A program made the translations under genes and the position numbers. This document shows, piece after piece, positions 33,507 to 51,974 of a stretch of 64,000 nt of DNA. Numbering within the stretch: position 1 is the stretch's first letter; each line of letters opens with the position of its first letter. This DNA comes from Candidatus Phaeomarinobacter ectocarpi (lineage in GTDB: Bacteria > Pseudomonadota > Alphaproteobacteria > CGMCC-115125), in the NCBI RefSeq assembly GCF_000689395.1, contig NZ_HG966617.1:1668127-1732126 (forward strand), read 5' to 3'. The notes under the pieces are model-generated. The model did not search any database, was not told where the DNA came from, and saw only the letters and a list, made by a program, of their open reading frames with translations.

Positions 33507-35132
33507 ATGCGCTTTTCACATATTACGGCGGCAACAACGCTTGCCTTCAGCCTTCTTGCAATGCCTGCTCATGCGGAACCAACACTTGCAGATGGCTGGA
33601 CGCTGGAGCCGCTTACCGGCCCCTCCCCCTTTCACGGTGTTCACGGCCTGACGGTCACCCCAGAAGGCAGGCTGCTGGCAGGATCGGTGGTGGGCGCGAC
33701 CCTTTATGAAATCGACCGCAAGACCGGTGCTGTGACTGTGGCCGAAGCAGCCCCGGACGGCATGGCCGACGATGTGGAACAAGGCCCCGATGGGACACTT
33801 GCCTGGACAGCTTTCCTGCAGGGAAAAGTATTTGCCCGCACACCCGCAGGTGAGCTGCTGACACTTGCCGAAGGACTGCCGGGTACCAATTCACTCGCCT
33901 GGACGGATGACGGCCGCCTGTTCATGACACAGGTCTTTGCAGGCGACGCCCTGTGGGAACTGGACCCCACCGGCAAGGAAGACCCTCGCCTCATCATGAA
34001 AGACATGGGCGGCCTCAATGGATTCGACTTTGGCCCTGACGGACATCTCTACGGCCCAATCTGGTTCAAGAGCCAGATCGCTCGGGTCAACGTGGATGCG
34101 GGCACCCTTGAAGTTATTGCCGACGGCTTCCAGACACCAGCTGCTGTCAACTTCAACTCGAAGAACGAGCTTTATGCGGTCGACACGCAGGCCGGGGAAG
34201 TCATCCGTGTGGATGTGGCATCCGGCGCCAAGACAATTGTGGCGCAGGTCAAACCCGCCATCGACAATCTGGCATTCGCGCCTGATGACACGCTCTACAT
34301 CTCCAACATGGCAGACAACGCGATTATTGAGGTGGACGTTGAAACCGGCGAAAGCACAGCACTGGTCTCAGGCCCGCTGGCAGTGGCAGCAGACATCGCC
34401 ATGGGCCCGGACGGCAGGACGCTGTATGTCGCAGATGTATTTGCCATCCGCGCCATCGATACGCAGACAGGCGACGTGACGGAAATCGCCCGCGTCTTTG
34501 CTCAGGAAATGGATTACCCCACCAGCATGGCAGTGGCGCACAACAAGTTTGCCGTGGCGGGACTGACCGCCGGCGCCGTCCAACTGTTTGACGGCCCCAC
34601 CGGCAAATCCATCGACCTCATGCACGGTTTCACAACACCCACAGAAGCCCTGCCCCTGGAAGATGGCGGCATCCTCGTAACGGAATATGCCCGCGGCGCC
34701 ATTGTGCGCGTCAATCCAGACGACCATGAAGACCGCATCACACTGGCAGACAAACTCGACGGTCCGGCCATGATGCAACAGGGACCTGACAGCGCGATCT
34801 ATTTTTCAGAAACCAAAGGCGGCCGCATCTCCCGGCTGACGGATAGCGGCGGCGTTGAAACCGTCGTTGATGATCTCGCCAATCCGGAAGGCTTCACCTT
34901 CCTGGCCAATGGCGGCATGGCGATTGTGGAGGCCGCCAAGCAGCAAATCACCATGATAATGCCGGAAGGTGACCGGGTGACGATCGCCTCCGGCCTCCCC
35001 TTCGGCGTCATTCCCGAAGAAGGCCCGGAAGTTTTCATGCCCACGGGTGTCGCTGAAGATGACAAAGGCAATCTCTACTTTTCCTCAGAGATCCTCGCGC
35101 AGGTTTTCAAACTCAGCCCGTCAAACCTCTAG
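33507..35132 (+). CDS. Secreted NHL/SMP-30-like beta-propeller protein
   Basis: This 541-residue protein has a signal peptide (1-23, ending MPAHA). It then carries about a dozen repeats of 40-45 residues of the type GPDGTLAWTAFLQGKVF, FGPDGHLYGPIWFKSQIARV and NFNSKNELYAVDTQAGEVIRV. This is the NHL/SMP-30-gluconolactonase/YncE propeller pattern, probably as two propellers given the length. Asp/Asn positions could bind a metal, but an enzymatic role is not shown. GGGGG sits eight bases before the ATG. It is probably periplasmic. Confidence 0.85.
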   Translation: MRFSHITAATTLAFSLLAMPAHAEPTLADGWTLEPLTGPSPFHGVHGLTVTPEGRLLAGSVVGATLYEIDRKTGAVTVAEAAPDGMADDVEQGPDGTLAWTAFLQGKVFARTPAGELLTLAEGLPGTNSLAWTDDGRLFMTQVFAGDALWELDPTGKEDPRLIMKDMGGLNGFDFGPDGHLYGPIWFKSQIARVNVDAGTLEVIADGFQTPAAVNFNSKNELYAVDTQAGEVIRVDVASGAKTIVAQVKPAIDNLAFAPDDTLYISNMADNAIIEVDVETGESTALVSGPLAVAADIAMGPDGRTLYVADVFAIRAIDTQTGDVTEIARVFAQEMDYPTSMAVAHNKFAVAGLTAGAVQLFDGPTGKSIDLMHGFTTPTEALPLEDGGILVTEYARGAIVRVNPDDHEDRITLADKLDGPAMMQQGPDSAIYFSETKGGRISRLTDSGGVETVVDDLANPEGFTFLANGGMAIVEAAKQQITMIMPEGDRVTIASGLPFGVIPEEGPEVFMPTGVAEDDKGNLYFSSEILAQVFKLSPSNL

Positions 35133-35163: not shown

Positions 35164-35189
35164 CCTCCTGACACCATGCTGTCAGGAGG
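35164..35189. promoter_or_regulatory. Perfect palindrome, candidate operator of the VOC/WYL pair
   Basis: CCTCCTGACA (35164-35173) and TGTCAGGAGG (35180-35189) form an exact 10-bp inverted repeat around CCATGC, 45 bases ahead of the VOC start. No T-run follows, so it is not a simple terminator. Its place before a VOC-regulator pair suggests binding by the WYL regulator. Confidence 0.6.
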
Positions 35190-35233
35190 GGTCTGTCACT
35201 GTGTTTCTCCACACACCGAACGGAGAAGCACCC

Positions 35234-35611
35234 ATGGCACACGCACCACAGAACTTTACGGTCTGGACTGAAATCCCGGTTACCGACGTCGACCGCGCGA
35301 TCGCGTTTTACAACGACGTTTTTGGCCTTGATCTCACGGTTGACAATAGCGGTCCCAACCCGATGGCCATGTTCCCCACAGCTGATGGGACCGGTATTGC
35401 GGGACACATCTACCCCGGCACCCCCGCCAAAGCGGGTGAAGGCCCAACCGCTCACTTCACAATTCCTGACAAGCTGGAGGACGCGATGGCGCGCGCGGCT
35501 AAAGCAGGCGGCAAGGTCGTGAGCGACCCTGTCACAATTCCCGCCGGGCGGTTTGCCTACGCTATTGACCCGGATGGAAATTCCATCGGCCTATTTGAGG
35601 CAATCGGATAG
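35234..35611 (+). CDS. VOC-family (glyoxalase/bleomycin-resistance-like) protein
   Basis: This 125-residue protein contains two VOC modules. The first includes EIPVTDVDRAIAFYNDVFGLDL near residue 13-34, and the second HFTIPDKLEDAMARAAKAGG followed by GRFAYAIDPDGNSIGLFE. Metal-ligand positions cannot be assigned with confidence; VOC members include glyoxalases, dioxygenases and sequestering proteins. The ATG at 35234 has GGAG nine bases ahead. It lies 18 bases before a WYL regulator gene, a pairing common in proteobacteria. Confidence 0.9.
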   Translation: MAHAPQNFTVWTEIPVTDVDRAIAFYNDVFGLDLTVDNSGPNPMAMFPTADGTGIAGHIYPGTPAKAGEGPTAHFTIPDKLEDAMARAAKAGGKVVSDPVTIPAGRFAYAIDPDGNSIGLFEAIG

Positions 35612-35629
35612 CCACCAGCGGGTAACACC

Positions 35630-36328
35630 ATGCGCAGAGCTGACCGCCTTTTTCAGATCGTTCAACATCTCAGAGGTGGTCGGCTCACCACAGCCCGTCA
35701 ATTGTCAGAACGGCTGGAAGTATCCGAGCGCACGATCTACCGCGACATCGTTGATCTCATTGGCGCCGGCGTCCCCATTGATGGCGAGGCAGGCATTGGC
35801 TACCTGATGCGTGAAGGTTTTGACCTTCCGCCCATGATGTTTTCCAAGGAGGAAATCGTGGCTCTCGTGGCCGGAGCACGGCTAATCAGGGCCTGGGGTG
35901 GCACCGACATGGCGAAGGCCGCGCAGGAAGCTCTGGTCAAGATCGAAACGGTACTGCCGCCCTCCGCCCGCGACCATGGCCGGCAGGTTCAGATCCACGC
36001 ATTCGCACCCCCACAAATCAACGACGACTACCGCAAGCGCCTTGATGATCTCGAACGTGCTGTTGAGTTACGGACGCGACTGAGCTTCGACTATGAAGAT
36101 GCTGCGGGTGACGCAACCAGCCGCACGGTGCGCCCCCTGGGTCTTTGGTACTGGGGACGCGTCTGGACACTGGTGGGGTGGTGTGAACTGCGCAATGACT
36201 TTCGAATGTTTCGCCTCGACAGGATCAGCGCCATGAAGCCCGATGGAAAGTTTACCCACGAGCCGGGCAAGACGCTGACCGATTTCTACCGTCAGATGGA
36301 ACTCGAAGGCCGCACACGCCCCACCTGA
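35630..36328 (+). CDS. YafY-type transcriptional regulator (HTH + WYL)
   Basis: This 232-residue regulator has an N-terminal HTH_11 helix-turn-helix (about 1-58: RADRLFQIVQHLRGGRLTTA, then LEVSERTIYRDIVDLIGAGV). A C-terminal WYL ligand-sensing domain (about 135-220) contains RTVRPLGLWYWGRVWTLVG and LRNDFRMFRLDRI. Homologues of this size act as dimeric repressors or activators responding to small ligands. It is co-transcribed with the VOC gene, and the palindrome at 35164-35189 is the natural candidate target. Ligand unknown. Confidence 0.93.
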   Translation: MRRADRLFQIVQHLRGGRLTTARQLSERLEVSERTIYRDIVDLIGAGVPIDGEAGIGYLMREGFDLPPMMFSKEEIVALVAGARLIRAWGGTDMAKAAQEALVKIETVLPPSARDHGRQVQIHAFAPPQINDDYRKRLDDLERAVELRTRLSFDYEDAAGDATSRTVRPLGLWYWGRVWTLVGWCELRNDFRMFRLDRISAMKPDGKFTHEPGKTLTDFYRQMELEGRTRPT

Positions 36329-36340
36329 CGCCCAAAGAAA

Positions 36341-36366
36341 AAGGGCGTCTCCTGAAAGACGCCCTT
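36341..36366. terminator. Bidirectional terminator between the WYL regulator and clpA
   Basis: AAGGGCGTCT (36341-36350) pairs perfectly with AGACGCCCTT (36357-36366) across a CCTGAA loop. On the minus strand it runs into TTTCTTTGGG, and on the plus strand into CTCATACTTTTG. It ends two convergent transcripts. Confidence 0.88.
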
Positions 36367-51941: not shown

Positions 51942-51974
51942 CGGCCCGGACGCTTCCAGCGTCCGGGCCGTATT
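51942..51974 (+). terminator. Terminator-type hairpin after the cold-shock gene
   Basis: CGGCCCGGACGC (51942-51953) pairs perfectly with GCGTCCGGGCCG (51959-51970) over a TTCCA loop, 31 bases after the stop. It is followed by TATTCGTATCT, which is only partly T-rich, so termination may depend on the very stable stem. Confidence 0.75.

Follow-up and report, generated by a model that had tools for sequence, protein, structure and literature searches.

A probable palindromic operator linked to compact WYL regulators and its place in predicted promoters of detoxification-type genes

In a 64,000-nt stretch of the Candidatus Phaeomarinobacter ectocarpi genome (hereafter the window), a perfect palindrome stands before a VOC gene and a gene encoding a helix-turn-helix (HTH) WYL regulator of the YafY type. 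Our analysis indicates that a compact WYL-type switch, of a kind present in many bacteria, very probably docks at this palindrome. The constant position of the palindrome within promoters suggests activation of detoxification-type genes by this switch and, in some relatives of the rhizobia, of uvrB.

We consider it likely that a homodimer of the regulator, which lacks a WCX domain, binds CTCCTGACA-N6-TGTCAGGAG, its two HTHs placed to either side of the -35 position, and thereby activates a sigma-70 promoter equipped with a -10 element, often extended, but lacking a -35 box. At this locus the VOC-WYL transcript would start at ~35209, and since it would include the regulator gene, we propose that the regulator is positively autoregulated. 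Relatives of the regulator would drive divergent genes for GSTs, EamA transporters, thioesterases and other proteins; in one alphaproteobacterial order, some genomes would also have uvrB under such control, from upstream positions like those of class I. Binding, the homodimer, activation and the transcripts are what we infer; comparison of sites and genomes, as described below, supplies the operator sequence, its link to WYL genes, the geometry of the promoters and the uvrB spacing.

The VOC-WYL locus and its palindrome

The original prediction placed a perfect palindrome with 10-bp arms directly before a VOC gene that is followed by a YafY-type HTH-WYL regulator. The palindrome is present exactly there, and the open reading frames (ORFs) and their Pfam matches bear out the two genes. 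The features of the locus are as follows.

35164-35189 (26 bp), no strand: perfect palindrome with 10-bp arms, CCTCCTGACA-CCATGC-TGTCAGGAGG, read directly in the sequence
35165-35188: operator consensus CTNCTGACA-N6-TGTCAGNAG, the inner 24-mer of the palindrome, from its association with WYL genes
35174-35179, + strand: N6 spacer CCATGC, -35 to -30 of the predicted promoter and not a -35 box
35194-35202, + strand: predicted extended -10, TG-t-CACTGT, with a weak hexamer, from promoter alignment
35197-35202, + strand: predicted -10 hexamer CACTGT, preceded by TG at 35194, with A 35198 as -11
35222-35225, + strand: GGAG, likely ribosome-binding site of the VOC gene, judged from sequence
35234-35611, + strand: VOC gene (glyoxalase/bleomycin-resistance superfamily), ATG start, 125 aa
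35630-36328, + strand: HTH-WYL regulator gene without WCX, ATG start, 232 aa
35636-35809, + strand: winged HTH of the regulator, residues 3-60, from the structure model and conservation
36041-36238, + strand: WYL domain of the regulator, residues 138-203, from Pfam and conservation
36341-36366: strong hairpin, by folding, between the regulator gene and a convergent ClpA-like gene; likely a shared terminator, not detected by the T-run terminator scan

The palindrome ends 44 bp before the VOC start codon, and 18 bp separate the VOC stop from the start of the regulator gene. The VOC protein matched Pfam Glyoxalase (PF00903, E 4.6e-14, 53.3 bits against a cut-off of 20.6), placing it in the VOC superfamily, and its best sequence match among solved structures was Rv0577 (3oxh, E 2.7e-14). 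Glyoxalase I itself was rejected, with 25.1 bits to the NCBIfam equivalog TIGR00068 (cut-off 120). The regulator matched WYL (PF13280, E 3.7e-21) and HTH_11 (PF08279, E 1.4e-14), and its annotated homologues carry the name YafY family protein. Directly upstream on the same strand (33507-35132) lies a gene for a beta-propeller protein with a hydrophobic N-terminus and matches to the ScyD/ScyE and SGL families, which ends 31 bp before the palindrome. Within the VOC coding sequence, a 14-nt imperfect inverted repeat (35344-35399, 93% complementary) has its arms 28 nt apart.

Taken alone, the palindrome does not clearly exceed what chance would give in 64 kb. The window contains 10 matches for perfect 10-bp arms with loops of 0-20 (four of these are nested together near 51942), and such palindromes numbered 0, 7, 1 and 1 in four Markov simulations. 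Although the palindrome alone cannot decide the matter, a chance find was rejected by the comparison between sites and genomes, and what makes the palindrome convincing is this comparison together with the genome-wide count. The 3,415,905-bp genome contains two exact CTGACA-N6-TGTCAG sites and three PF13280 (WYL) genes, and both sites adjoin WYL genes. Scored against CTNCTGACA-N6-TGTCAGNAG, both reach 16/16 and the next best match 14/16. With up to three mismatches to the longer pattern there were 14 matches, versus 8 for a reversed control pattern; these further near-sites, around two of which the ORFs were inspected, look like background, and none lies at any of the three WYL genes. The second exact site (C1:279290) stands between the second WYL gene, whose product is 43% identical, and a divergent GST gene (C1:277790-280807), so that one genome holds two regulators with one operator type. 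The operator was not found in the locus of the third WYL gene, of the MSRPERLF type (L013, C1:287600-288238; orthologues in L011 and L012).

Operator and WYL genes across genomes

We compared genomes from both directions, starting either from the palindrome or from the regulator. In the palindrome-first comparison, genome contigs were scanned for exact CCTGACA-N6-TGTCAGG, which gave at least 119 stretches with at least 123 sites, and the ORFs of those stretches were searched with a WYL profile derived from 35 homologues. Among the matches listed, a WYL ORF lay within 2 kb of 33 of the 54 sites that also carry the outer CT and AG, compared with 6/20 sites with one outer pair and 3/49 with neither. 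When only sites flanked by 1.5 kb or more on either side were counted, the figures were 23/30, 4/13 and 2/27, respectively (Fisher p ~1e-7 for 23/30 versus 2/27); related genomes are not independent in these counts, and several matches are Mesorhizobium. Full sites with a WYL ORF occurred, among the matches listed, in Alpha-, Beta- and Gammaproteobacteria, a Planctomycete, a Thermomicrobiales metagenome-assembled genome and Paenibacillus. The same palindrome before VOC-WYL pairs, which the original prediction had proposed to look for in other genomes, was found in alpha-, beta- and gammaproteobacteria and in a myxobacterium.

In the regulator-first comparison, 385 genomes of the class were searched, 69 of which had a homologue at E<=1e-40; 86 such homologues and three weaker ones from the genus made up 89 loci. 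The exact core was present in the fetched stretch at 52 of the 89. Absence of the palindrome from orthologous loci was to refute the original prediction; two of the three other genomes of the genus carry it there (L006, L008), and the third (L007) is uninformative, as its contig starts 294 bp before the gene; L182 is likewise near a contig end. In a tree of the 89 homologues, site-bearers fell into several deep groups, and a 24-row clade that includes the window's regulator had 22 members with the site. The site label changed 17 times on this tree, versus 28.6 in shuffles, with a bootstrap that is not fully settled. A protein search of a plasmid collection returned 11 matches, and eight loci were examined after exclusion of a Sandaracinus duplicate and two Vibrio. 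A site of 15-16/16 was present at five of the eight; these five include the Klebsiella, Enterobacter and Sandaracinus loci, the three at which an annotated VOC gene lies directly before a same-strand YafY-family gene.

Several variants of the operator were also observed. In Bacillus inaquosorum and B. mojavensis (L154, L157), AAACCTGACA-N6-TGTCAGGTTT lies 296 bp from distant WYL genes, with the core kept and the outer bases changed. At five other loci (L197, L213, L225, L232, L234) one half-site is altered, giving CTGCTGCCA-N6-TGTCAGCAG, 22-57 bp before the WYL gene, which may reflect a shifted specificity. Six loci, Mesorhizobium where named (L081, L082, L085, L108, L163, L166), carry two operators spaced 900-946 bp, and in L081 and L163 one of the pair adjoins a short gene with no Pfam match.

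Promoter geometry and further candidate targets

Promoters were aligned on the palindrome in the orientation of the target gene, and those at least 70% identical were dropped (60 to 53, of which 30 are VOC and 23 WYL-adjacent). All 30 VOC promoters have an A at index +33 (-11), at a fixed distance from the palindrome, and many share G at +30 (-14; 22/30), T at +37 (-7; 19/30), T at +29 (-15; 18/30) and T at +32 (-12; 12/30). We read these aligned bases as a -10 element, in many cases extended, with its hexamer beginning 8 nt beyond the 24-mer. If the hexamer is numbered -12 to -7, the palindrome spans -44 to -21 and the N6 falls exactly on -35 to -30. This spacer bears no likeness to a -35 box: across the 53 non-redundant promoters it matched TTGACA at a mean of 0.51 of 6 positions, with zero matches in 30. 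A consensus scan for sigma-70 promoters found none, because there is no -35; the -10 emerged only once the promoters were aligned on the palindrome. At the WYL-adjacent sites, a TA at the -10 place lay on the far side in 15 of 23.

After 17 duplicates and two sites too near an end were dropped, 118 distinct sites were scored, and 63 reached at least 5/6 of the -10 signature on their better side, versus 0.8% at shifted offsets. Since this score used promoters that had themselves suggested the signature, it was repeated on held-out sites, whose first gene is neither VOC, WYL nor uvrB, of which 33/56 scored at least 5/6, versus 0.9% at shifted offsets. The five plasmid-collection sites scored 5 (one), 4 (three) and 2 (one).

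These results divide the original proposal of simple autoregulation. The palindrome does go with the neighbouring WYL family; an autoregulated pair, however, is not the whole story, because the fixed distance to the -10 and the spacer at -35 point to activation, because the -10 signature at WYL-adjacent sites more often faces the other gene, and because the operator reaches GST genes, EamA transporters and uvrB. First genes were assigned to sites by a mechanical rule, and 30 first-gene proteins were scanned against Pfam (10 without a match). The first genes included those for GSTs (L009, L142), EamA transporters (L041, L125), thioesterases (L069, L099), a Zn-dehydrogenase (L054), a DinB_2 protein (L111, Paenibacillus), a UvrA-like protein (L053), UvrB (L057, L068, L086, L161, L162) and, in Mesorhizobium, a desaturase (L046) and an HTH_3 protein (L052); the first gene of L089 is UvrB-like by its start and P-loop. 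In Mesorhizobium and Nitratireductor (L046, L052, L059, L106, L146), the palindrome, often with one outer base altered, adjoins a desaturase-like gene; L052, L106 and L146 also have an HTH-regulator-like gene on the opposite side of the palindrome. Pfam assignments among these five loci cover L046 and L052.

For uvrB, we searched 121 genomes of one alphaproteobacterial order, obtained a match in 115 and examined 30 loci, nine of which have a site of at least 14/16 upstream. Together, 14 site-bearing uvrB promoters were collected, six via the palindrome and eight via uvrB (sister pairs included; L245, a copy of L161, was dropped). In these, the 24-mer lies only 48, 49, 58, 59 or 69 nt from a CATATT, a spacing whose concentration at a period of 10.5 (R 0.96) was not equalled in any of 20,000 random draws. 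With CATATT as the -10, the site centres would fall near -72.5, -82.5 and -93.5. TTTCCA-like boxes lie 17 nt before CATATT, with a mean of 3.8/6 matches to TTGACA. That uvrB is a second -35-flanking target was rejected, as the sites shown have no -10 at that place; the distances fit class I spacing. We then considered 22 genomes searched for WYL homologues, nine with a uvrB site and 13 of the 21 without one. A WYL gene bearing an operator (at least 14/16) was present in 9/9 genomes with the uvrB site versus 3/13 without it (Fisher 0.0005, uncorrected for kinship).

A number of observations weigh against the favoured explanation. A complete TAnnnT stands at the expected place in 7 of the 30 VOC promoters, T(-12) being present in just the 12 noted above, and the TA faces the WYL gene in 6 of the 23 WYL-adjacent promoters. 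Fifty-five of the 118 distinct sites score below 5, and at one plasmid-collection site (L306) neither side shows a -10 signature. The exact core is absent at 37 of the 89 homologues (nine near variants and 28 with none, a few of them at contig ends), three Vibrio loci among the eight plasmid-collection loci have no site, 21 of the 30 uvrB regions lack one (best match 12/16 or lower), and those uvrB sites that exist do not have the -35-flanking geometry. In none of these counts are related genomes independent.

Regulator, signal and alternative explanations

In an AlphaFold2 model of the regulator (57-sequence alignment, pLDDT 90.9), an HTH, linker helices and a WYL fold are followed by a single helix (216-225) after the WYL sheet, with no WCX domain; 88 homologues are 221-248 aa long. 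An N-terminal HTH, then WYL, with no WCX after it, makes this a class B protein, a class that comprises 15% of WYL proteins and is more than two thirds proteobacterial (PMC6789036). Foldseek ranked PafB/PafC (9fnd) and DriD (9pfv, 8tp8) above CapW and BrxR, and the best sequence match in the PDB was PafBC (6sj9). In the recognition helix, R34 and R38 are invariant in 52/52 site-bearing homologues, at a spacing equal to that of the two outward arginines of PafB, R44 and R48 (PMC6789036). These residues are also common in non-bearers (R38 25/25, R34 22/25) and so do not account for specificity; the largest differences between bearers and non-bearers are at columns 48, 5, 13 and 10, outside the recognition helix. 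In the WYL domain, R165, P169, W184, C185, R192 and F194 are invariant (89/89), with R195 kept in 86 and R198 in 82.

The closest known parallel is DriD of Caulobacter crescentus, an activator that is likewise a winged HTH-WYL protein and acts as a homodimer (PMC12340889, preprint). Its DNA-binding domains flank a poor -35 at a constant distance from the -10 (PMC12340889), and the geometry seen here, by sequence, resembles that of the DriD activator and not plain autorepression. The DriD site is the pseudo-palindrome ATACGAC-N7-GTCGTAT with the core GAC-N7-GTC, whereas the core here is GAC-N8-GTC and the arms differ; its named targets are didA, bapE, recJ and dnaG (PMC12340889). DriD has a WCX domain and ~330 residues, compared with 232 aa and none here; as regards its activation by single-stranded DNA, conserved WYL arginines were observed here. 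The mycobacterial PafBC, a WYL activator that adapts sigma at a -26 element (PMC11804915), recognizes tTGTCRgtg-8 nt-TannnT, which resembles the promoter-proximal half TGTCAGGAG-N8-TAnnnT, with TGTC one base nearer to the -10 than here (PMC5656591). A PafBC deletion lowered the uvrB transcript (PMC5656591), and PafBC does not bind its own promoter without polymerase (PMC11804915). Unlike the single gene, perfect palindrome and WCX-less protein described here, PafBC is a heterodimer with WCX that uses a single half-site. SiwR of Mycobacterium smegmatis is a WYL activator with a palindrome, the -26 region, single-stranded DNA and genotoxic stress in its account, and some actinobacterial neighbours are glyoxalase-like (PMC10693628); it has WCX, and the regulator here does not. 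A point of likeness to SiwR is the Paenibacillus locus L111, which joins the palindrome, a WYL gene and a DinB_2 gene. Activation is favoured here because of the DriD-like geometry together with a promoter-proximal half that resembles the PafBC motif.

As to the inducing signal, we speculate that single-stranded DNA, or some other nucleic acid linked to genotoxic stress, plays this part, as reported for PafBC, DriD and SiwR; a nucleic acid is favoured because of the uvrB target and the kept WYL arginines. A somewhat unlikely alternative is a small molecule (antibiotic, electrophile or oxidant), sensed perhaps via the invariant C185, which would make the regulon one of drug or electrophile detoxification and not a DNA damage response. 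It would fit the invariant W184-C185 pair, targets such as VOC, GST, Zn-dehydrogenase and EamA transporters, and the proposal that YafY-EVE operons with VOC/EhpR or SRPBCC are ligand-activated antibiotic resistance modules (PMC7641849). The arginines R192, R195 and R198, however, lie in the motif of SiwR R204/R207, which were mutated in the SiwR WYL domain (an equivalence by motif only), and uvrB is a target in some genomes.

Less likely still, the regulator might be a repressor that sits at -44 to -21, blocks RNA polymerase at a -35-less promoter and leaves upon ligand binding. Its site does overlap the promoter core, and extended -10 promoters can function without a -35 box. Repression is also the mode of the WYL proteins BrxR and CapW, which control phage-defence loci (PMC9122601, PMC10693628) and share the HTH-WYL fold, BrxR binding inverted repeats; both rank lower than the activators in fold comparison with the regulator here. 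A blocker, moreover, tolerates variation in the distance to the -10, which is constant here, and would not be expected to act from the uvrB sites, whose positions near -72.5, -82.5 and -93.5 share a helical face. Another regulator binding the palindrome, with the WYL gene merely a member of its regulon, is very unlikely: 7/30 full sites, among the matches listed, have no WYL ORF within 2 kb, yet both sites of the own genome adjoin WYL genes, some site variants follow WYL clades, and uvrB sites go with operator-bearing WYL genes. An RNA role for the palindrome, as a hairpin that terminates or attenuates transcription of the beta-propeller gene 31 bp upstream, is hardly credible, for the terminator scan found none there, the core bases are conserved next to WYL genes of either orientation and in front of many different genes, and the spacing to the -10 is fixed.

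The pairing of YafY-family HTH-WYL factors with VOC (EhpR-type) genes has been published, in predicted YafY-EVE-VOC/SRPBCC operons (PMC7641849). Those operons include an EVE-domain gene, whereas none was seen here, where no search for EVE was made; section 8 of that account gives no operator or promoter (PMC7641849). Disruption of YafY has been reported to raise bioleaching (PMC12041372). A literature search, made largely without subscription papers, returned no report of the operator, its promoter geometry or a mechanism for YafY or class B. As class B and the YafY-VOC pairing are already described, what appears new is the operator code and the promoter geometry.

More tentatively, class B WYL regulators might constitute a widespread, LexA-independent genotoxin response, in which a nucleic-acid-sensing homodimer would take over the role of the -35 contact in promoters of VOC, GST and efflux genes and switch on uvrB from class I positions, using one operator code, CTNCTGACA-N6-TGTCAGNAG, from Pseudomonadota to Myxococcota, Bacillota, Planctomycetota and Chloroflexota. 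A readable operator and promoter geometry would allow the targets of many unnamed YafY family regulators to be listed from sequence, and would open two questions to testing: do WYL activators in general act by flanking the -35, and are VOC proteins with no assigned substrate part of a DNA-damage or genotoxin response?
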